A DNA stretch of 64,000 nt from an uncultured Desulfovibrionaceae bacterium. GTDB taxonomy: Bacteria; Desulfobacterota; Desulfovibrionia; Desulfovibrionales; Desulfovibrionaceae. The notes beneath the pieces are model-generated. The model ran no database searches. It saw nothing but the letters and a program-made list of their open reading frames with translations, and was not told the origin of the DNA. Location of the stretch: contig CALUZP010000149.1 of the NCBI GenBank assembly GCA_944325325.1, positions 1-64,000 of the forward strand, in the 5' to 3' direction. The translations under genes were made by a program, and so were the position numbers. This document shows, one piece after another, positions 27,881-39,566 of this stretch (its first letter is position 1; each line of letters opens with the position of its first letter).

Positions 27881-27997
27881 TCCCCAGTGTGCTGGCGGCA
27901 TGCCTGCCGTTGCTCCGAAAACCTTGTCCCCTGCCATCATTTAACCCGCTCCTGCCGGAATCTTCCATTCTGTCCGGAGCATGATGAAGATAGCGCC

Positions 27998-30289
27998 ATG
28001 ATGACCTCCATCCGTAAAAGAGATTCCCGTATCGTTCCCTTTGACGTGTCCAAAATTGCGGACGCCATTTTTAAGGCGGCCAAGACACAGGGCGGGACCG
28101 ATCCGGAACTGGCCATGCAGCTGGCCAGACAGGTGGAGGAACAGCTTGTCGCGCGCTATGGCGACGGCGTGCCTGATGTTGAGGAAGTTCAGGATCTTGT
28201 TGAAAAAACACTGATCGAGACCGGCCATGCCCGCACGGCCAAGGCCTATATCCTCTATCGCAACGAGCGGACGCGCATCCGGGTCATGAAAACCCGGCTC
28301 ATGAGCATCCTGAAGGATCTGTCCTTCAAGGAAGCCCGCGACAACGATCTCAAGCGCGAAAACGCCAATATCGACGGCGATACGGCCATGGGCACCATGC
28401 TCAAGTTCGGCAGCGAAGCGGCCAAGCAGTTCTATGAGTGCTTCCTGCTCAAGCCGGAGCACAGTCAGGCGCACAGCGAAGGCGACATCCATATCCACGA
28501 TCTCGATTTTCTGTCGCTGACGACAACCTGCTGCCAGATCGACATCAAAAAACTGTTCAAGGGCGGGTTTAACACCGGCCATGGTTTCCTGCGCGAACCC
28601 AACAGCATCCAGAGCACCAGCGCACTGGCCTGCATCGCCATCCAGTCAAACCAGAACGACCAGCATGGCGGCCAGAGCATCCCGAACTTTGAGTACGGCA
28701 TGGCCCCCGGTGTGGCTAAAAGCTACATCAAGAACCTGGATCTTGCCCTGGACATGCGCGACGCCGATCCTGAATTCAGAGCCCAGGTCTCACAGACCCT
28801 GCGCAGCTATCTGACCAGGCAGGAGCAGGCCGACAGCACCTCCCTGCTGCTTGACGAAGCCGGCCAGGCCGTGGTGCTGGAAACGTTGTGCACGAAGCTT
28901 TCTGAAGCCGAGGCCCGGCATCTGATGGACAAGGCCCTTGCCCGGACCGACAAGGACACCTATCAGGCCATGGAAGGCCTTGTGCATAACCTCAACACCA
29001 TGCACAGCCGTGCCGGTGCACAGATCCCGTTCAGCTCGATCAACTACGGGACCGACACGTCGCCTGAAGGCCGGATGGTCATCCGCAATATCCTGCTGGC
29101 CACGGAAGCCGGTCTGGGCAACGGCGAGACGCCTATCTTCCCCATTCACATCTTCAAGGTGAAGGAAGGCGTCAACTTCAACCCGGGTGACCCGAACTAT
29201 GATCTGTTCAAGCTGGCCTGCCGGGTGTCGGCCAAGCGTCTGTTCCCCAATTTTTCATTCCTGGATGCGCCGTTCAATAAAGCCTACTACCGTGCAGGCC
29301 GTCCGGAAACCGAAATTGCCTATATGGGCTGCCGGACCAGAGTCATCGGCAACATCCATGATCCTTCGCGTGAAATCGTCAACGGCCGTGGCAACCTGAG
29401 CTTCACCTCCCTGAACCTTCCCCGTCTGGGTCTGAAGCACCGGGGCGATATTGACGGCTTTTTCCGCGATCTCGAGGCGCTTGAAAATCTGGTCTTCGAC
29501 CAACTCCTTGAACGCCTGGAAATCCAGAGCGCCAAGAAGGTCAAAAACTATCCGTTCCTCATGGGTCAGGGAATCTGGATCGACTCCGACAAGCTCGGTC
29601 CTGAGGACGAAGTGCGCGAAGTACTCAAGCACGGGACGCTGACCATCGGCTTCATCGGCCTGGCGGAATGCCTGACCGCGCTTATCGGCATGCACCATGG
29701 CCAGTCCGAACAGGCCCAGGAGCTGGGATTGCGCATCATCAGACACATCCGTGAACACGCCGATGCCAGGGGACGCGAAACCGGACTCAACTTTTCGGTC
29801 ATCGCCACGCCTGCCGAAGGCCTGGCCGGACGGTTCGTCCGCCTGGATCGGGCGATTTTCGGCAGTATCCCGAACATCACCGATCGCGACTACTACACCA
29901 ACTCGTTTCATATCCCGGTGCACTTCCCGATCAGCGCCTATGAAAAAATCCGGCTCGAAGCACCGTACCATGCGCTGACCAACGGCGGGCACATCACCTA
30001 TGTGGAAGTGGACGGCGACCCCAGCAGGAACCTCGAAGCGTTCGAGGATATTGTGCGGGCCATGGAGCGGATGGGCATCGGCTATGGCTCCATCAACCAT
30101 CCTGTGGATCGGGATCCGGTCTGTGGCTATACGGGCATCATCGGCGATGTCTGTCCCCGCTGCGGCCGTCACGACGGCGAGGGGATCCCCCTGGAGACCC
30201 TCCGCAAAATCAAAGGTTACATCAAAGATCCCCGCACACCCGACGAAGTGCGGGAATCTGGACATAAAATTCCCAACTGTACCTTGTAA
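27998..30289 (+). CDS. nrdD: Anaerobic (class III) ribonucleoside-triphosphate reductase, large protein
   Basis: NrdD makes deoxynucleotides in anaerobes by a glycyl radical mechanism. From the ATG pair at 27998 the protein has 763 residues: an ATP-cone (about 1-95, RKRDSRIVPFDVSKI at its start), then the ten-stranded barrel with HIHDLDF, NFEYGMAPG and INYGTDTSPEGRM. The C-terminus holds a zinc-type region (VCGYTG then CPRCGRHD) with three of the usual four cysteines. The glycyl radical loop is degenerate: LRKIKGYIK replaces the expected RR-x-x-GYL and the usual end is lost. The canonical loop is on the next gene. The upstream riboswitch indicates control by B12. The ribosome site is weak. 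Confidence 0.92.
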   Translation: MMTSIRKRDSRIVPFDVSKIADAIFKAAKTQGGTDPELAMQLARQVEEQLVARYGDGVPDVEEVQDLVEKTLIETGHARTAKAYILYRNERTRIRVMKTRLMSILKDLSFKEARDNDLKRENANIDGDTAMGTMLKFGSEAAKQFYECFLLKPEHSQAHSEGDIHIHDLDFLSLTTTCCQIDIKKLFKGGFNTGHGFLREPNSIQSTSALACIAIQSNQNDQHGGQSIPNFEYGMAPGVAKSYIKNLDLALDMRDADPEFRAQVSQTLRSYLTRQEQADSTSLLLDEAGQAVVLETLCTKLSEAEARHLMDKALARTDKDTYQAMEGLVHNLNTMHSRAGAQIPFSSINYGTDTSPEGRMVIRNILLATEAGLGNGETPIFPIHIFKVKEGVNFNPGDPNYDLFKLACRVSAKRLFPNFSFLDAPFNKAYYRAGRPETEIAYMGCRTRVIGNIHDPSREIVNGRGNLSFTSLNLPRLGLKHRGDIDGFFRDLEALENLVFDQLLERLEIQSAKKVKNYPFLMGQGIWIDSDKLGPEDEVREVLKHGTLTIGFIGLAECLTALIGMHHGQSEQAQELGLRIIRHIREHADARGRETGLNFSVIATPAEGLAGRFVRLDRAIFGSIPNITDRDYYTNSFHIPVHFPISAYEKIRLEAPYHALTNGGHITYVEVDGDPSRNLEAFEDIVRAMERMGIGYGSINHPVDRDPVCGYTGIIGDVCPRCGRHDGEGIPLETLRKIKGYIKDPRTPDEVRESGHKIPNCTL

Positions 30290-30882: not shown

Positions 30883-32154
30883 CTACAAGAGCAGCAGCGA
30901 AATCTGCGGTACGGCCACAAGGACGCCAAGAGCTATGAGCATGGTCACCAGATACGGGATCACGCCGATGCTCAGCTTTTCGATGGACATTTTGCTGATA
31001 CCGCAGCCCACGAACAGATTGACGCCCACAGGCGGCGTCAGGAAGCCCATGGCGGCTGAAACAATCATGATGATGCCAAAGTGAATCGGGTCCACCCCGA
31101 CCGCCTTGATCATGGGGAACATCAGCGGTGCCAGGATGATGATGTTTGCGAGTGCTTCCATGAAGGTCCCTGCAATCAGCATGACCAGAATGATGACCGC
31201 AATCAGGGCGTATTTGTTGTGTGCTACGCATTCCAGCATGCTGGCGACAGCGTCTGAGACGTTGTAGATAAGCAGCAGTTGCCCCAGTGCACACGCGCAG
31301 CACATGATGATGAAAATGGTTGCGTTGGTGATTGTAGCGCCCTTGAGCACTTCATACAGCTTGCGCCAGCTCAGCGAGCGCATCAGCAGGCCTTCGGCAA
31401 GCAGGGCATAGGCCACCGTCATGGCGCCGGCTTCCGTAGGCGTGAAAATCCCCCCATAGATGCCGCCCAGCACGATCAGCGGCACCATCAGGGCATGCTT
31501 GGCATCCCACAGGGCGCGCAGCGTTTCCCGCATGGTGGCCCTGGGAAACACAATCTGAATTCCCCGCCTGCGGACAATGAAATACGAGGTGATCATGAGG
31601 CAGACGCCCACAAACACCCCCGGAAGGATGCCGGCAATAAACAAGTCACTGACCGAAACCCCGACCGAAGCACCATAAATGATCAGGGGGACACTCGGGG
31701 GGATCATCACGCCAAGGCAGCCTGCGGACACATTGACCGCGGTAGAAAAGTCCTTGGGGTAGCCATCCTTTTCCATGGCGGGGATCATGATACCCCCCAC
31801 CGCTGCCACTGTTGCCGGGCTTGAACCGCTCAACGCGCCGTAAAACATGCAGGTCAGAATGCTGACGTGCGCCATGCCTCCCGGGATATGTCCCACCAGA
31901 CAGCGCGAAACACGCAACAGGGCGTCGGCCATGGTGCCTTTCTGCATGATTTCACCGGCAAGGATGAAAAAGGGGACGGCCAGCAGCGGGAAACTGTCCA
32001 GCGACGTCACCATTTTTTCAATGACGAACGTGACAGGCAAATCGCCGGCAAGGCAGCCCACAATGACGCTCAAACCTATGGCAACGGCAATCGGAGCGCT
32101 CAAGACCAGCAACACAACCATCGTGACAAGGGTCAACACAACAGGAAGTTCCAT
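30883..32154 (-). CDS. TRAP transporter large permease (DctM family)
   Basis: This is the ion-coupled transport subunit of a tripartite ATP-independent periplasmic importer. Its 423 residues form about twelve hydrophobic segments. Family features include the early PFFILAGEIM, the GALSGSSPATVAAVGGIMIPAM stretch, the central VMIPPSVPLIIYG, and the late MGFLTPPVGVNLFVG. The start follows GGCGGAGGAG. It is the last gene of the set SDR-DctP-DctQ-DctM, all on the minus strand. The substrate is unknown; the binding protein suggests a carboxylate-like anion. Confidence 0.93.
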   Translation of the reverse strand: MELPVVLTLVTMVVLLVLSAPIAVAIGLSVIVGCLAGDLPVTFVIEKMVTSLDSFPLLAVPFFILAGEIMQKGTMADALLRVSRCLVGHIPGGMAHVSILTCMFYGALSGSSPATVAAVGGIMIPAMEKDGYPKDFSTAVNVSAGCLGVMIPPSVPLIIYGASVGVSVSDLFIAGILPGVFVGVCLMITSYFIVRRRGIQIVFPRATMRETLRALWDAKHALMVPLIVLGGIYGGIFTPTEAGAMTVAYALLAEGLLMRSLSWRKLYEVLKGATITNATIFIIMCCACALGQLLLIYNVSDAVASMLECVAHNKYALIAVIILVMLIAGTFMEALANIIILAPLMFPMIKAVGVDPIHFGIIMIVSAAMGFLTPPVGVNLFVGCGISKMSIEKLSIGVIPYLVTMLIALGVLVAVPQISLLLL

Positions 32155-32188
32155 ATACTCCTCCGCCGTTCACCACACAGCAACACAA

Positions 32189-32710
32189 TTACCACGATTT
32201 GACATCAGCATAAGCGTCCTCTAATCCATCAGACGAGTCCTGTTCATGCCGATGTGAACGCAGCGTCTTGATGGTAAACATGACTGTCCGCACGGCCATG
32301 CACGCCATGGAAATGGGCACCACCAGATACAACAGCCACATTTCCATATCGATGGAAGCGGCAACCTGGCCGGATTCCTTGATAAACCCGACGACCTCCA
32401 CGCCCCACCACATCATGAGAAGACAAAAAAGCACGGTGGCCGCCGAAGAAATCACGGTGATGATCGCCCTGCCCTTCGGGCCGAACAGCATCCTTATTGC
32501 CGTGATCTCAAGATGGCGCCCCTCTTCCGCAGCGAGACTGGCCCCAAGAAACACCGCACAAATAAAGGTATACCGGGCCACTTCTTCGGGCCACTCCAAG
32601 GCGCTTGAAAGGCAGTAGCGGAAAAAAACCTGCAATACGATACACAGGCAGATCACCACCATCATGGCGATGCTGGCGTACCGTTCAAAATGTTTCACGA
32701 AGGTCAGCAT
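32189..32710 (-). CDS. TRAP transporter small permease (DctQ family)
   Basis: This is the four-helix partner of the large permease. The 173-residue protein has four hydrophobic segments, and the conserved EWPEEVARYTFICAVFLGAS with nearby charged residues GRHLEI. The start is the ATG preceded by TAGGAGG at 9 nt; an in-frame TTG three codons earlier is less likely. It lies 34 nt before dctM. Confidence 0.92.
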   Translation of the reverse strand: MLTFVKHFERYASIAMMVVICLCIVLQVFFRYCLSSALEWPEEVARYTFICAVFLGASLAAEEGRHLEITAIRMLFGPKGRAIITVISSAATVLFCLLMMWWGVEVVGFIKESGQVAASIDMEMWLLYLVVPISMACMAVRTVMFTIKTLRSHRHEQDSSDGLEDAYADVKSW

Positions 32711-32797
32711 GCAATTCAACCTCCTACCTGGAAACGCTGAGCGGGATCACGCGGGCGGCCCTCCAGCCGTTCCGCCCGCGTCCGGTCTTCTCTTCTT

Positions 32798-33799
32798 TCA
32801 CTTGAGCAGGCCGGCATCCCTGAATGTGGCCAGCACCTGTTCAATCAACGCCGGAGGGATCATGTCCTTGAATTCCGCCGGGACGTCCTTGCTGGAACGG
32901 ATCCAGCGCTCCCGTTCCTGCTCGGTAAGATCAAGTACCGTCATCCCGCACTCCTTCTGCATTCTTTCCAGAAATTCCACTTCGTTCTGCCGCGAAAGCT
33001 GCCGCTGCTCCTTGATGCACTGGGTCATGATGTCGCTGATCATCTTCTGATCCTCAGCATTCAACGAGCTCCAGAACCGCTTGGAGACAAGCACCATGTG
33101 CGGAGTATAGAAATGACGGCTCAGGGTCATGTACTTCGTCACTTCATAGAACCGCCAGAACCAGCCAAGGTTGATGTCCACATCAATGGCGTCCACGGTC
33201 CTCTGCTGCAGGCCGGTAAACACTTCCCCCCAGGCCATGGGCGTAGGATTCATGCCCAGCGAACGCAAAATGGCAATGTGCGCCTTGGAAGGCGTGGCGC
33301 GAACCTTCAGCCCCTTGGCGTCTTCCAGAGACTTCACAGGCTTGCTGCTAAAAAGCTGCCTGAAACCAAGTTCCATGTAGCCCATATTGATGCAGCCGTT
33401 CTTTTCCAGCGACTTGCTCAGCTCCTTGCCCACGTCGCCGTCCAGGATAAGATCGGCCGCTTCATAGCTGGGGAACAGATAAGGCATATCAAACAGCATC
33501 AGGCGCTGGTCGAATACCGAAAAGTTGGAGGTTGATTCTGCACCGATCTGCAGCACGCCCATTTGCAGGCCTTTGACAATGGAGTCCGGATTGCCATACT
33601 TGCCGGAGTCGATCAGGTCGACCTTAAACCTGCCGTTGGACTGTGCCTCAAGCCGTTCCTTGAACTTGGCAAAGGCGACGCCCTGCGGATGCTCGGGAAT
33701 GTTGGTGTAGGCAATCTTGATGGTCTTGGCGGCCTGAGCCCCCGGGACACCGCACAGCGCAAGCGTGAAGACGCACAGTACGGCCAGAAGACGCTTCAT
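32798..33799 (-). CDS. TRAP transporter periplasmic binding protein (DctP family)
   Basis: The signal peptide MKRLLAVLCVFTLALCGVPGAQAAK is clear. The 333-residue protein shows the DctP pattern: HPQGVAFAKFKERLEAQSNGRFKVDLID, DMPYLFPSYEAADLIL, the GLKVRATPSKAH segment with the arginine that in family members pairs with the ligand carboxylate, and PMAWGEVFTGLQQRTVDAIDVD. An Arg at that site suggests an organic acid or another small anion, possibly a sulfonate. The start was placed at the ATG with GGAG upstream, 14 codons inside the longest frame. It lies about 90 nt downstream of the SDR gene. Confidence 0.93.
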   Translation of the reverse strand: MKRLLAVLCVFTLALCGVPGAQAAKTIKIAYTNIPEHPQGVAFAKFKERLEAQSNGRFKVDLIDSGKYGNPDSIVKGLQMGVLQIGAESTSNFSVFDQRLMLFDMPYLFPSYEAADLILDGDVGKELSKSLEKNGCINMGYMELGFRQLFSSKPVKSLEDAKGLKVRATPSKAHIAILRSLGMNPTPMAWGEVFTGLQQRTVDAIDVDINLGWFWRFYEVTKYMTLSRHFYTPHMVLVSKRFWSSLNAEDQKMISDIMTQCIKEQRQLSRQNEVEFLERMQKECGMTVLDLTEQERERWIRSSKDVPAEFKDMIPPALIEQVLATFRDAGLLK

Positions 33800-33886
33800 A
33801 TCTTTCTCCTCTGCTTGAAATGTTAATCCTTCTACAAACAAGACCTCTGCCCGTTACAGCCGCAATCGCAGCGGCGTTGCGGGATG

Positions 33887-34699
33887 TCACAGCTCGACGA
33901 GCTGCCCCCCGCAGACATTGAACGTCTGCCCGGTGAGATATGACGCCCCGTCAGAAATCAGAAATGCGACCAGCAGGCCCACATCCTGGATGGTGCCGAT
34001 CCGCTCAAGCGGGATGCTTTTTCTGGCCTGCTCAAGGCGCTCGCCATATGGAATGGCCATCTGCCGCGCCTCCGAGGCATAGCGGCTGGACTGCAGATCC
34101 GTCATGATCTGCCCGGGGCACACCGCGTTGGCGCGGATGCCCCGGGAGCCGTACTCCACCGCATAGCATTTGGTCAGCATGATCACCCCGGCCTTGCTGA
34201 CCGAATAGGGGCTGTAGCCCGCCGCCGGGCGCTTCCCTGCCCTGGAGGCCATATTGATGATGACCGATCCCCGAGAAAGCAGCGGCGTGAACGTCCGCAT
34301 CATGCGGAACACCCCGTTCAGGTTGACGTCCATCGTTTTCTGCCAGTCTGTCAGCGGCGTTTCCGCAATGCTGGCGGCGGAAAGCATGATGCCGGCGTTG
34401 TTGATCAGAGCATGGAGGGGCTCACCTGCTGTCAGCCGCTTCATGAAGGCTGCTGCGTCTTCAACAGAGTCCTGGCATGTCACGTCCAGCGGCAACCCGT
34501 GCACCTCAGCGCCAAACTGCTCCCTCAACGCACGGCAGCAGTCGTCCATTGAAGCAGAAGGCGCACAGCTGGCCGGAATGTCCGCAAGAACAATCCGCAT
34601 GCCACAACGGGCAAGAACGCTGGCAATGCCAAAACCAATGCCTGTTTTCTTCCCGGCGCCGCTGATCAGAACGGTCTTTCCCCTCAGCTCTTCATACAT
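33887..34699 (-). CDS. Short-chain dehydrogenase/reductase of the sigma54 cluster
   Basis: This is a classical SDR of 270 residues. The cofactor motif is ISGAGKKTGIGFGIA, LINNAGIML follows, and the active site reads IINMASRAGKRPAAGYSPYSVSKAG with the catalytic Ser, Tyr and Lys. NAVCPGQIMTDL and the end YLTGQTFNVCGGQ are typical. The acidic residue after the second strand (VLADIP) suggests NAD over NADP. GGAGG lies 8 nt before the ATG. It is the first gene of the TRAP operon, behind a -24/-12 promoter. It would oxidise or reduce a hydroxyl/carbonyl of the imported compound. The substrate is unknown. Confidence 0.9.
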   Translation of the reverse strand: MYEELRGKTVLISGAGKKTGIGFGIASVLARCGMRIVLADIPASCAPSASMDDCCRALREQFGAEVHGLPLDVTCQDSVEDAAAFMKRLTAGEPLHALINNAGIMLSAASIAETPLTDWQKTMDVNLNGVFRMMRTFTPLLSRGSVIINMASRAGKRPAAGYSPYSVSKAGVIMLTKCYAVEYGSRGIRANAVCPGQIMTDLQSSRYASEARQMAIPYGERLEQARKSIPLERIGTIQDVGLLVAFLISDGASYLTGQTFNVCGGQLVEL

Positions 34700-34753
34700 G
34701 TGGTATCCTCCAGGCTCGATAAGGCAGGAAAGGCTTCCTGCTGTTCTTTTAGT

Positions 34754-34769
34754 TACAAGAAGGATACCA
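34754..34769 (-). promoter_or_regulatory. Candidate sigma54 promoter of the SDR-TRAP operon
   Basis: On the minus strand TGGTATCCTTCTTGTA has GG and GT exactly 10 nt apart, against TGG-N9-TTGC consensus, about 55 nt before the SDR start. The usual GC at -12 is GT. It aligns well with the better site at 36492-36507. An AT-rich stretch upstream (34770-34900) could hold activator sites. Confidence 0.55.
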
Positions 34770-34934
34770 TTTGTTATTTTTTTATATCTTATTGAATTTA
34801 TATCTATTTATATAACAACTCAGCATTTTGTCTGAAGAATCTGTTAATTTTATTTTACATATCGTTAAAAATTCTTTACATATGTGCAGGCCTACGTTCC
34901 TTTTTTGGCATACCAGCTTTGATGTGAGACAATT

Positions 34935-36338
34935 ATGACGGCAACAGGCAGCACGCTCGTAGAGCTGTACCAGAAAATCATTGACGCCCTGCCTATGGGT
35001 ATTCTCTTTGTCGACACCAATCTGCATGTCCGGGTCATCAACAACTGCTATGCAACACAGCTTGGCGGGGATGTGCAGTCCATCCTTGGCAAATACCTGC
35101 CCGATCTGAATCCCGGCACCTATGCGCGCCGCGTCATGGAACGCAATCAACCTGAAATGGGAGACATGTGCACGCTTCCATCGACTGGAAACACGTTGAA
35201 ATTCATTGTAAACCGCATTCCGCTCTCTACAGAGTCCGGGCAGGTCATGGGCATGGTGTCGCATATCATGTTTACCGACCCCAACCAGCTCAAAAGCTTG
35301 AACGACAAAATCAACGAACTGCTTAATCGTGTTGATTTCTATAAAAAAAGTATCAATTCCATTCTGCGGCAGCAGTACAGCATCGAACGCATCATCGGTG
35401 AAGGGGAGGCCATCCGGACGGTCAAGCAGCACATCCTGCGCTATGCTTCCTCCACATTTCCCGTCCTGATTCGTGGTGCTACAGGCACCGGCAAGGAACT
35501 GACCGCCCATGCCATCCACACCGAAAGCCCCCAGCGGGAAGGCCCCTTCATCAGCATCAACTGTGCAGCCATCCCCAAGGATCTGTTTGAAACCGAGCTG
35601 TTCGGCTATGCATCCGGCGCGTTCTCGGGCGCAAACCGGGATGGCAAGCCCGGACAGATCGAGCTTGCCGACAACGGAACGCTGTTTCTGGATGAAATTG
35701 GCGACATGCCTCTGAATGCACAGACAAAGCTGCTGCGGGTTCTGGAAGACAAACGCGTCACCCGGGTGGGCAGTGTAAAGTCCCATAAAGTCAACTTTCG
35801 CCTTATTTCAGCCACGAACCGGAATCTTGAGGAAATGGTCAGACAGGGAACCTTCCGTGAAGACCTCTACTACCGCATTTGCGCCCTGACCATTCATCTG
35901 CCCCCCCTTGCCGAACGCAAGGAAGACATCCTGCCCATCGCCAACCATATTCTGAGTCAGATTGGCTATGGCCATGTCGGATTCACGCCACGGGCCATGC
36001 AGGCCATGAAACGATACAGCTGGCCTGGCAACGTCCGGCAGCTGTTCAATGTCCTGGTCCATGCTTCATTGCACTGCCAGGCAAACCTTATCGATGTTCA
36101 GGATCTCCCTGGTGAACTGGTTCAGGCGCCGGCCAGCCTTTCCACTGACGATGATCTGCCCCTTGCCGACTATCTTGCGCGTCAGGAAGAGCGTTTTTTA
36201 CGCAAGGCGCTCCAGCGCCATGGCGGCAACGTCTCTGCCATGGCCCGTCAGCTCGGCATTTCCAGAGTCACGCTGTATAACAAATTTAAAAAGTACCATC
36301 TGAACCCGACGGCCGAACACGAAGATTCCACCTGCTGA
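34935..36338 (+). CDS. Sigma54-dependent transcriptional activator with PAS domain
   Basis: This enhancer-binding protein of 467 residues has an N-terminal PAS domain (about 8-120, starting LYQKIIDALPMGILFVDTN), an AAA+ domain with Walker A GATGTGKE, Walker B LFLDEIGDMP, and a Fis-type C-terminal helix-turn-helix (NVSAMARQLGISRVTLYNKFKKY). The sigma54-contact loop reads GAFSGA instead of GAFTGA, a conservative change. The PAS domain would sense the inducer directly, as no histidine kinase is nearby. It lies between the SDR-TRAP operon and the ThDP enzyme gene, both with -24/-12 promoters. These are its probable targets. Confidence 0.92.
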   Translation: MTATGSTLVELYQKIIDALPMGILFVDTNLHVRVINNCYATQLGGDVQSILGKYLPDLNPGTYARRVMERNQPEMGDMCTLPSTGNTLKFIVNRIPLSTESGQVMGMVSHIMFTDPNQLKSLNDKINELLNRVDFYKKSINSILRQQYSIERIIGEGEAIRTVKQHILRYASSTFPVLIRGATGTGKELTAHAIHTESPQREGPFISINCAAIPKDLFETELFGYASGAFSGANRDGKPGQIELADNGTLFLDEIGDMPLNAQTKLLRVLEDKRVTRVGSVKSHKVNFRLISATNRNLEEMVRQGTFREDLYYRICALTIHLPPLAERKEDILPIANHILSQIGYGHVGFTPRAMQAMKRYSWPGNVRQLFNVLVHASLHCQANLIDVQDLPGELVQAPASLSTDDDLPLADYLARQEERFLRKALQRHGGNVSAMARQLGISRVTLYNKFKKYHLNPTAEHEDSTC

Positions 36339-36491
36339 ATGCGCTGGTTCGAACAATCCTCCGGGCTGGATGGCGAACATCCGCCTCAAGGCAGACAGGT
36401 GTAAACCGACATTAACGCTTTATCTCTCCATGATTGTGAAGACAACGTGTACATCCATATAACATATTTAAATTATATAAGTTTATGCAGA

Positions 36492-36507
36492 TGGAATACT
36501 CCTTGCT
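36492..36507 (+). promoter_or_regulatory. Sigma54 promoter of the ThDP enzyme gene
   Basis: TGGAATACTCCTTGCT has the invariant GG and GC spaced by 10 nt, 67 nt before the ATG. The AT-rich sequence just upstream (36460-36485) is a plausible activator or IHF region. Confidence 0.75.
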
Positions 36508-36573
36508 TACTTTAGGGGCATCATCAACATCTGCGCGTCCCGGACGCATTTTTCACCCCCTAGGAGGTATTCC

Positions 36574-38280
36574 ATGTTGCTGCATTGTGCAAACGGTGGC
36601 GACGCCGCCGCAAAAGTCCTGATTGATTTGGGCGTCGAAGTCGTCTTCACGCTGACAGGCGGCCACCTGAACCATATTCACCGGACCCTGCAAAACAGCC
36701 CTGTCCGCCTTGTGGACGTCCGCCACGAACAGGCGGCAACGTTCATGGCCGACGCGTATGCCCGCATGACCGGGAAGCCCGGCGTGGCCATGCTGACGGC
36801 CGGCCCCGGCTTCACCAACTGCATCTCCCCGCTGCAGCAGGCCGCCACAAACTGCACCCCGCTTTTGATCATCGCCGGAGCGTCTGATACCGTCTACCGG
36901 GACAAGATCGACCTCCAGGACGCCCCGCAACAGGCCATCGCCGCACCGATCTGCAAGGCAACCTTTGTCTGCACGGAAACCTCACGCGTGGCCGAATATG
37001 TGGAAATGGCCTACAGGACAACCATCACCGGCCGGCCGGGTCCCGTTTTCCTTGAACTCCCCTGCAACGTGCTGGGCAACGCCATGCCCAACGGCTCCTG
37101 CGTCTATTACAAGACGATTGTCGATTCCCATCCCGCCGATCTGCAAGGTGTGGCCAAGACCATCGACCTGCTGCAGCAGGCTTCGCGCCCCATCGTCGTC
37201 GTGGGCAGCGGCGGCGGCTACGCCAAAGCCGGAGACGCCCTGCGCAACTTTGTGGAAAAAAGCGGTATCCCCGCCTTTACTGCCAACATGGGGCGCGGCC
37301 TCATCTCTGATCTCCACCCGCTCGGTTTCGGCCTTGCCGCGGCAAATCGCCCTGTTACAGCCAAAAAGGCCTACGCGGAAGCAGACGTCATCCTGATCCT
37401 CGGCCACCGCATCACCCTGCATGACTTCTTTGGCGGCGCTTACAACCCCAAGGGCAAAATCATCCAGGTGGACATCTGCGGTGAAGAGCTGGGCCGCAAC
37501 AGGCGTGTGGATCTCCCCATCGTCAGCGACGTCCGCGGCTTCCTTGAAGCCGCCTGCGACAGGCTGGACGCCATGGGCCTTTCGGGCTCCATCGGCTCGC
37601 GCTATCAGGCCTGGGTCGAAGAGCTCCGCGCCGAAAAACAGCGCTGCCGTGAAGAACTCATGCCAGCCATGACAAGCGCCGACATTCCCATCCATCCCCA
37701 GCGGCTCATTTATGAAGTTGATCAGTTCATGAACCGGGATGACGACGTTGTCGTCGGCGACGGCGGCGACACCCTGACCTGGCTGCTCATGGGCCGCACG
37801 GTCCGCAAGCCCTACCGCATCATGGATCACGGGCTGTTCTGGTGCATCGGCGGCGGCATTGCGGACGTCATTTCCGCACGTCTCGTCTACCCTGACAGCC
37901 GTGTCATGCTGGTCACTGGCGACGGCTCGTTTGGCTTCAACTTCATGGAAGTCACCACAGCCCTGCGCAAGGGCCTTGCCTTTGTCATCGTGGTAGCCAA
38001 CGACTCTTCCTGGGGCATGATCCGCCACAGCCAGAAACTGCGCTTTGGCGAAACAATAGACTCCGTCACCCTGCTCGGCGCCACACCGTACCACAAGATG
38101 GTGGAAGCCGCCGGCGGCAAGGGCTTCTATGTGGAACGCCCCGAAGACATCCGTCCCGCTCTTGAAGCAGCCTTTGCCTCCGGCACGGTGGCCTGCGTCA
38201 ATGTTCAGATCAACCCCGAAATCATCAGCCCCGGCAGCATCGCCCTTGGTCAGCTCGGAGCGTATAAGATTACGGAATAA
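36574..38280 (+). CDS. Thiamine diphosphate-dependent enzyme, benzaldehyde-lyase-like
   Basis: This 568-residue protein has the three-domain acetolactate synthase fold: pyrimidine-binding domain (about 1-170), central domain (about 190-330) and diphosphate-binding domain with VTGDGSFGF and VVANDSSWG. Glu52 in RHEQAATFMADAYAR is the cofactor-activating glutamate, so it is not glyoxylate carboligase. Compared from memory with benzaldehyde lyase, GGH places His31 at the position of that enzyme's catalytic His29, and NVQINPEIISPG matches its end. It should cleave or form a carbon-carbon bond next to a carbonyl. Oxalyl-CoA decarboxylase or a 2-hydroxyacyl-CoA lyase are alternatives. AGGAGG precedes the start, and a sigma54 promoter drives it. 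Confidence 0.85.
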   Translation: MLLHCANGGDAAAKVLIDLGVEVVFTLTGGHLNHIHRTLQNSPVRLVDVRHEQAATFMADAYARMTGKPGVAMLTAGPGFTNCISPLQQAATNCTPLLIIAGASDTVYRDKIDLQDAPQQAIAAPICKATFVCTETSRVAEYVEMAYRTTITGRPGPVFLELPCNVLGNAMPNGSCVYYKTIVDSHPADLQGVAKTIDLLQQASRPIVVVGSGGGYAKAGDALRNFVEKSGIPAFTANMGRGLISDLHPLGFGLAAANRPVTAKKAYAEADVILILGHRITLHDFFGGAYNPKGKIIQVDICGEELGRNRRVDLPIVSDVRGFLEAACDRLDAMGLSGSIGSRYQAWVEELRAEKQRCREELMPAMTSADIPIHPQRLIYEVDQFMNRDDDVVVGDGGDTLTWLLMGRTVRKPYRIMDHGLFWCIGGGIADVISARLVYPDSRVMLVTGDGSFGFNFMEVTTALRKGLAFVIVVANDSSWGMIRHSQKLRFGETIDSVTLLGATPYHKMVEAAGGKGFYVERPEDIRPALEAAFASGTVACVNVQINPEIISPGSIALGQLGAYKITE

Positions 38281-39035: not shown

Positions 39036-39566
39036 ATGGCACAACAAACACTGCATGACATCACCCTGCGCATCGCCGGGCGCATCGGCGAATCCATCGT
39101 GGACGGCCCCGGGCTGCGCTACGTTCTGTTCACACAAGGCTGCCCGCATCACTGTCCCGGCTGCCACAACCCGGAAACCCACGACCCTGAAGGCGGCACC
39201 CTTGTGCCTCTGGACGAGATCCTGGACAACATCCTGGCCAATCCGTTGATCCACCGGGTCACATTCAGTGGCGGAGAACCGTTTACCCAGGCCGCCCAAC
39301 TGCTGCCACTGGCACAGGAGCTCAAGTCACGCGGGTTTCACCTCATGGCGTATACGGGCTTTACTTACAAAGCACTGCTCGGACAGCCGGACAGCCTGGC
39401 CCTGCTGAAGATGCTCGACATGCTGGTCGATGGTCCCTTTATCCTGGCCCAGCGCTCGCTTGAGCTGCCGTTCAGAGGATCGGCCAACCAGCGCGTGCTG
39501 GATGTCCCGTCCTCGCTCAAGGCCGGCCATCCGGTTCTGCATCCCGCGCACCATTCCGGATCCTGA
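39036..39566 (+). CDS. nrdG: Anaerobic ribonucleotide reductase activating enzyme
   Basis: NrdG is the radical SAM protein that puts the radical on the glycine of NrdD. The 176-residue protein has DGPGLRYVLFTQGCPHHCPGCHNPETHD with the CxxxCxxC cluster motif, then FSGGEPFTQA, which binds SAM, and DMLVDGPFI. Its length fits the family. The ribosome site is distant (GGAAAGG). It lies 8.7 kb from nrdD rather than beside it. It must act on whichever protein bears the functional glycine, either the large NrdD or the 62-residue partner. Confidence 0.93.
   Translation: MAQQTLHDITLRIAGRIGESIVDGPGLRYVLFTQGCPHHCPGCHNPETHDPEGGTLVPLDEILDNILANPLIHRVTFSGGEPFTQAAQLLPLAQELKSRGFHLMAYTGFTYKALLGQPDSLALLKMLDMLVDGPFILAQRSLELPFRGSANQRVLDVPSSLKAGHPVLHPAHHSGS

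Follow-up and report, generated by a model that had tools for sequence, protein, structure and literature searches.

A sigma54-controlled gene cluster of Desulfovibrionaceae that probably converts a C3 sulfonate into sulfoacetaldehyde

Which compound is taken up and broken down by a bacterium that places a binding-protein-dependent transporter, a dehydrogenase and a thiamine-dependent enzyme around a single activator gene? This question is raised by a six-gene cluster at positions 30883-38280 of the window, that is, the whole stretch of DNA analysed (64,000 nucleotides of contig CALUZP010000149.1, from an uncultured Desulfovibrionaceae bacterium). An earlier note on this DNA had described an activator between two divergent units: (i) a short-chain dehydrogenase/reductase (SDR) with the tripartite ATP-independent periplasmic (TRAP) transporter DctPQM; and (ii) a thiamine diphosphate (ThDP)-dependent enzyme. 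The coordinates of the open reading frames (ORFs) bear out this layout. The same note held a sulfonate to be a conceivable substrate; in general terms, its interpretation was right in outline, is here narrowed to organosulfonates that converge on sulfoacetaldehyde, and as a whole is partly supported. In our opinion, the cluster probably serves this sulfite-respiring gut bacterium as an inducible entry into the respiration of organosulfonates, leading from a C3 sulfonate to sulfoacetaldehyde. All six ORFs are open, and profile searches of their translations gave family matches far above chance:

30883..32154, minus strand: DctM, TRAP large permease (PF06808, 369 bits; TIGR00786, 401 bits, over cut-off)
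32189..32719, minus strand: DctQ, TRAP small permease (PF04290, 113 bits)
32798..33799, minus strand: DctP, TRAP substrate-binding protein (start MKRLL; PF03480, 254 bits)
33887..34699, minus strand: SDR dehydrogenase (PF13561, 193 bits)
34935..36338, plus strand: activator with PAS, sigma54 AAA+ and Fis helix-turn-helix (HTH) domains (PF00158, 226 bits; PF02954; PAS matches)
36574..38280, plus strand: ThDP-dependent lyase/decarboxylase of the benzaldehyde lyase (BAL), 2-hydroxyacyl-CoA lyase (HACL) and oxalyl-CoA decarboxylase (OXC) group (three ThDP domains, PDB matches, alignment, tree)

The link to sulfonates comes from the genes found near relatives of the ThDP gene. Among 395 Desulfobacterota genomes, 50 have a relative of the ThDP enzyme at E <= 1e-140, and 26 of these score 800 bits or more (ThDP+ genomes). 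Xsc occurs in 14 of the 26 ThDP+ genomes versus 16 of the 369 others (Fisher p 4e-11), and lies within 4 kb of the ThDP gene in seven ThDP+ genomes. Since the genomes are related, such association tests overstate independence; the adjacency of Xsc across several families is the stronger evidence. Over its cut-off (676 bits), Xsc stands beside the ThDP gene at loci L142 (751 bits), L144 (771), L151 (845), L154 (847) and L155 (744). At L154, a single co-directional run reads AckA, Xsc, SDR, ThDP enzyme, major facilitator superfamily (MFS) transporter and medium-chain dehydrogenase (MDR), while L142 combines Xsc with a TauE-like protein and AckA (432 versus 293 bits). The operon at L037 contains a beta-hydroxyacid-type dehydrogenase, the ThDP enzyme and, directly after it, an iron-type alcohol dehydrogenase (Fe-ADH) similar to SarD (585 bits, cut-off 700; next family, 281).

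Within the window's own subclade, Xsc or SarD is present in eight of nine genomes, the ninth being a partial assembly of 1.6 Mb: Xsc in G032, G136, G145, G150 and G151; SarD without Xsc in G000 and G012 (over cut-off) and in G149 (585 bits). The glycyl radical enzymes of L144 and L147 can be classed only as sulfonate-type. Both Xsc and SarD consume sulfoacetaldehyde and, therefore, the most economical reading is that the SDR and the ThDP enzyme make it. The neighbourhood survey that the earlier note had recommended points to organosulfonates. With Xsc, SarD, AckA or a glycyl radical enzyme of the sulfonate type in related loci, and with a host genome that is itself that of a taurine/isethionate respirer, a sulfonate is now the best-supported substrate class. 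A D-2-hydroxyacid dehydrogenase near loci with DASS transporters (L158, L159, L164), SlcC-like at first, was not counted: its best match is glyoxylate reductase and an AmmeMemoRadiSam gene lies beside it.

The ThDP enzyme has HACL, OXC, BAL and formolase as its closest solved relatives (about 28-31% identity in PDB comparison), and its AlphaFold model reaches a mean pLDDT of 85 and a pTM of 0.86. Among the best 25 NCBIfam families listed, it passes no curated cut-off: the best is acetolactate synthase-like (352 versus 587 bits), and the OXC/HACL models fall below theirs (NF006721 for OXC, 299 versus 557; NF058623 for HACL, 304 versus 600; TIGR03254, 283 versus 739 bits). The Xsc model TIGR03457 (cut-off 676 bits) is absent from these 25 families, Ile483 stands in place of Xsc Glu510 and, in a tree whose root serves only for display, the ThDP clade is supported at 100/99 with Xsc apart. 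Two BAL residues named in the earlier note, His29 and the activating glutamate (Glu50), are found in the BAL alignment as His30 and Glu52, together with Gln115 (BAL Gln113) and His419 (BAL His415). The pocket, in turn, is changed by Met482, Arg484 and Ser486 (BAL Ala480, Leu482 and Phe484, respectively). His30 is also kept in the SDR-linked clade of Desulfobacterota, whose mark is the motif GGH...WGMI(R/M/A)HSQ; the window enzyme reads GGH...WGMIRHSQ. At the position of Gln113, lyases have Gln, aldehyde-releasing 2-oxoacid decarboxylases His or Leu, and oxalyl-CoA decarboxylase Glu, yet AHAS, POX and Gcl, which decarboxylate without aldehyde release, also have Gln (PMC13327070). Judging from the sequence, Gln115 would moderately, not decisively, favour lyase chemistry over aldehyde-releasing decarboxylation, and the kept residues lend support to BAL-like cleavage as the probable activity, in line with the acyloin-type C-C cleavage expected earlier.

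The SDR has the residues Ser152-Tyr165-Lys169 and an Asp40 after strand 2, which is NAD-type. An SDR adjoins the ThDP gene in 15 loci, the window counted, and the transporters beside such pairs are of five types (TRAP, TTT, SBF/BASS, MFS and DASS); consequently, the SDR and the ThDP enzyme, not the transporter, are the core of the system. The partner dehydrogenase can also be exchanged, for a beta-hydroxyacid-type dehydrogenase in L037 and for an MDR in L157. Among 288 genomes of the family, the SDR model (E <= 1e-60) matches only four: (i) the window's genome and (ii) G136, in both of which the SDR is part of this cluster; (iii) G542, where the match is the L046/L160 pair; and (iv) G073, where it is weaker and has no ThDP partner. 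The copy at L046:9001-10672, from Ca. Desulfovibrio gallistercoris, is a second ThDP gene (57-62% identical) split over two frames by a frameshift or an assembly error, next to SDR, MFS and TTT genes. Both HpsO (an SDR) and HpsP (an MDR) oxidise 2,3-dihydroxypropane-1-sulfonate (DHPS) to sulfolactaldehyde, and a Ser-x-Gln147 signature serves stereo-recognition in HpsO, an R-DHPS dehydrogenase (PMC11131964). In the window SDR, the alignment shows Ser152-Arg153-Ala154 instead.

About nine of the sampled Desulfovibrionaceae have an orthologue of the ThDP enzyme (73-96%). At L101, all six genes lie in one co-directional operon whose order differs from that of the window (identities: ThDP enzyme 74, SDR 53, DctP 64, DctQ 52, DctM 76 and activator 58%), so that the six-gene set has been kept through rearrangement. 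The activator and the ThDP enzyme are accompanied by the same TRAP transporter at L041, from the isolate Desulfovibrio sp. OH1186, and by another TRAP type at L038, L039, L040 and L043. A sister branch has GES in place of GGH and is paired with an epimerase-type reductase. In this branch (L140, L141, L045, L047 and L150; hosts include Desulfatibacillum, a metagenome-assembled Spirochaete and others), the epimerase-like reductase is always present, mostly with a CRP-type regulator and an SBF or MFS transporter. In the tree, L144 is labelled GES because of an over-long start, not because of the motif.

Two sigma54 sites can be distinguished:

36492..36506, plus strand: sigma54 -24/-12 promoter of the ThDP gene, TGGAATACTCCTTGC (equivalent sites in L038-L043 and L101)
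34755..34769, minus strand: candidate sigma54 promoter of the SDR-TRAP unit, TGGTATCCTTCTTGT (weak, shuffle p 0.09)

In each of the eight loci with a retained activator, the window among them, a GG-N10-GC site lies 60-108 bases upstream of the start of the ThDP gene (shuffle p <= 0.006 in every case). No such site precedes the ThDP gene at L037, where a LacI-type regulator takes the place of the activator. Since a scan of the window for the sigma54 pattern with two mismatches gave no excess of sites, the case for the promoter depends on its position and its conservation. The activator has the sigma54 AAA+ domain and the HTH of an enhancer-binding protein, with a GG-N10-GC promoter at its target; sigma54 control, at first assumed, is thereby supported by TGGAATACTCCTTGC and by the promoters at seven orthologous loci.

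The import of a small anion and its oxidation, also predicted in the earlier note, are supported as well. DctP keeps both anion-binding arginines (R149, R169) and S91, N94, W192 and H236 of the isethionate-binding protein IseP; five of the eight polar IseP contacts compared (Arg156, Arg177, Ser95, Asn98, Tyr153, Asn217, Asp77 and His244) are kept, and isethionate-binding 8t9t is its second-best PDB match. Its orthologues are 61-72% identical. In any case, these residues do not decide the ligand.

The host genome groups with Candidatus Avidesulfovibrio, and its nearest ThDP relative (L042) is 96% identical. It has Ald-Tpa-SarD at L088 (where Ald and Tpa were assigned from their sequences and gene order, not from a curated cut-off) and, at L093, IslA with microcompartment shell genes (1471 bits to Bilophila IslA, PDB 7kq3); no Xsc was found in it. 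Three of its glycyl radical enzymes receive the NCBIfam name HpsG; PDB comparison identifies the microcompartment-linked one as IslA and cannot distinguish the other two, which are thus sulfonate-type only. An IseP-like DctP with a fused DctQM is split over two contig ends (L096:1-606 and L097:5621-7965), which suggests that these contigs join. Because the host holds Tpa-SarD and IslA, sulfoacetaldehyde would be consumed at once and the NADH from the SDR spent by SarD.

The analysis shows the gene set, its conservation, the promoter, the active-site residues and a linkage in genomes to enzymes that consume sulfoacetaldehyde. Taken together, we infer the substrate, the reaction and the direction of flux as follows: (i) the PAS activator, with sigma54, would turn on both units; (ii) DctPQM would import a small C3 sulfonate, likelier DHPS than 3-sulfolactate; (iii) the NAD-type SDR would oxidise a hydroxyl adjoining another oxygenated carbon, to sulfolactaldehyde, 3-hydroxy-2-oxopropanesulfonate or, if sulfolactate is the substrate, sulfopyruvate; (iv) the ThDP enzyme would cut the bond between two oxygenated carbons, yielding sulfoacetaldehyde and a C1 product (formaldehyde from DHPS, CO2 from sulfolactate); and (v) SarD, with NADH, would reduce sulfoacetaldehyde to isethionate, from which the glycyl radical lyase IslA would free sulfite for respiration, while in relatives Xsc would instead turn it into acetyl phosphate and sulfite.

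As to the substrate, DHPS has an edge over sulfolactate. It fits because the partner dehydrogenases, which swap among SDR, MDR and beta-hydroxyacid types, belong to the superfamilies of HpsO, HpsP and sulfolactaldehyde reductase, and because a 2-hydroxy aldehyde or a hydroxyketone is the kind of compound that a BAL-like site is suited to cleave. We prefer a lyase reaction on oxidised DHPS since the BAL active-site residues are kept and Gln115 is atypical of aldehyde-releasing 2-oxoacid decarboxylases. A more specific proposal, put forward only tentatively, is a new DHPS breakdown in which the SDR first oxidises the substrate and a BAL-like enzyme dedicated to this step then splits the product, in a benzoin-type reaction, into formaldehyde and sulfoacetaldehyde. 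Gut Desulfovibrionaceae and other Desulfobacterota would then have in common a lyase module for the C-C cleavage of sulfonates, feeding Xsc or SarD-IslA.

Under the same general reading falls a close rival to lyase cleavage, in itself rather doubtful, namely that 3-sulfolactate is imported and oxidised to 3-sulfopyruvate by the SDR, the ThDP enzyme being a sulfopyruvate decarboxylase that replaces ComDE and gives CO2 and sulfoacetaldehyde. The known ComDE-Xsc route is built on the same principle, the CO2 released would do no harm, and TRAP, TTT and DASS transporters suit a dianion. Behind a TTT transporter at L038:2249-6282, there are ComA-like, XcbC-like and fumarase-like alpha/beta genes, which could interconvert sulfolactate, sulfoacrylate, phosphosulfolactate and phosphoenolpyruvate plus sulfite, possibly as a catabolic chemistry of the coenzyme M type; this set, beside the L038 module, suggests sulfolactate chemistry. 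However, Gln115 and Ile483 differ from the residues of aldehyde-releasing 2-oxoacid decarboxylases, the exchange of partner dehydrogenases just mentioned speaks for DHPS, and we know of no sulfolactate dehydrogenase in the SDR superfamily. ComDE is a two-domain (N and C) ThDP protein or a subunit pair without the central domain; the window enzyme is one chain in which TPP_enzyme_M is present.

Several observations weigh against a sulfonate pathway as such. In the window's subclade, Xsc lies elsewhere in the genome, never next to the module, and L037 is the one locus whose operon includes SarD; at the level of Desulfovibrionaceae the association is modest (p 8e-4, in related genomes). No SDR adjoins the ThDP orthologue at L039-L041 and L043, and in DctP the Tyr153, Asn217 and Asp77 of IseP are replaced. 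Outside the family, Xsc, SarD and sulfonate-type glycyl radical enzymes over cut-off are all missing from about ten ThDP+ genomes of Desulfobacterota and, hence, other hydroxy-carbonyls may be cleaved in the wider ThDP family. On Variovorax and Rhodococcus plasmids, distant relatives that carry the GGH motif lie beside an SDR, with no visible sulfonate genes (the plasmid matches H8 and H12 are oxalyl-CoA decarboxylases outside this clade). These last two points, together with the long branch that separates the Desulfovibrionaceae subclade from the Xsc-linked one, favour a general cassette for diol-to-acyloin cleavage, acting here on a carboxylate or another hydroxy-carbonyl, with the sulfonate link as a specialisation of some branches only. 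We regard it as rather unlikely in view of the sulfoacetaldehyde enzymes in eight of the nine genomes of the window's subclade, the SarD-like gene inside the L037 operon and a host genome dedicated to sulfonate respiration. Finally, it is highly improbable that the TRAP-SDR unit imports isethionate and oxidises it to sulfoacetaldehyde for an Xsc-like desulfonating ThDP enzyme, as the likeness of DctP to IseP and the lack of Xsc in the host could suggest, given that the enzyme is set apart from Xsc on the three counts above, that L154 and L155 hold both enzymes in one cluster, and that the host has a separate IseP-like DctP (L096).

Five known systems can be compared with the proposed sulfonate module. 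BAL and formolase (2ag0, 4qpz) share with the ThDP enzyme the fold (TM 0.85-0.88), four catalytic residue equivalents and a predicted retro-benzoin cleavage; but identity is 30-31%, Met482, Ser486 and Arg484 make the window enzyme's pocket polar, and its relatives are linked to sulfonate genes. HACL and oxalyl-CoA decarboxylase, of the same three-domain type, are top structural matches (TM 0.82-0.87) at 27-29% identity, although the cluster has no CoA-transferase or CoA-ligase partner. The SlcCD/ComC-ComDE-Xsc sulfolactate pathway also uses a dehydrogenase and a ThDP enzyme to reach sulfoacetaldehyde, while the window has an SDR and a single-chain BAL-like enzyme for SlcC/ComC and ComDE. HpsO/HpsP/HpsN oxidation of DHPS likewise has an SDR (HpsO) as first dehydrogenase and an operon with a transporter; nevertheless, Gln147 of HpsO is Ala154 here, and instead of an aldehyde dehydrogenase there would be C-C cleavage. 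Lastly, the Bilophila taurine/isethionate route (Tpa-SarD-IslA), present in the host, would take up the product, but it starts from taurine or isethionate and has no ThDP step. In the literature searched, the gene set is not described and no named pathway with these genes was found, as the earlier note had stated; nor, with best solved relatives at about 28-31%, does the ThDP enzyme match a characterised pathway at high identity.

The whole cluster is flanked by nrdD (27887-30289) and nrdG (39036-39566), both unrelated to the catabolic genes; nrdG likewise follows the ThDP gene at L042. On the same contig, 62 kb away (L087:7707-14361), there is a glycyl radical enzyme that belongs to none of the named families (hydroxyproline dehydratase, 513 bits against a cut-off of 1100); it is accompanied by an activase, a further DctPQM and a separate PAS-sigma54 activator. 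In a ThDP+ Desulfovibrio, L105:7907-14993 is an unnamed cluster with a PRK06112-type ThDP enzyme, an SDR, a TTT transporter, an aldehyde ferredoxin oxidoreductase-like gene and an Fe-ADH whose best family is SarD (325 bits).

Among the sources of hydrogen sulfide in the intestine are C3 sulfonates, which sulfolipid and diet supply; to our knowledge, the routes known for these compounds in gut anaerobes depend on glycyl radical enzymes or on sulfolactate lyases. If the proposed pathway is true, a soluble ThDP route would link C3 sulfonates to the taurine/isethionate hub, as an extra branch of the gut sulfur network and a so far undescribed front end for the formation of hydrogen sulfide from dietary sulfonates. 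A conserved enzyme family still without a name would also gain a function, and the GGH...RHSQ ThDP enzyme together with the SDR could then serve as marker genes in metagenomes.

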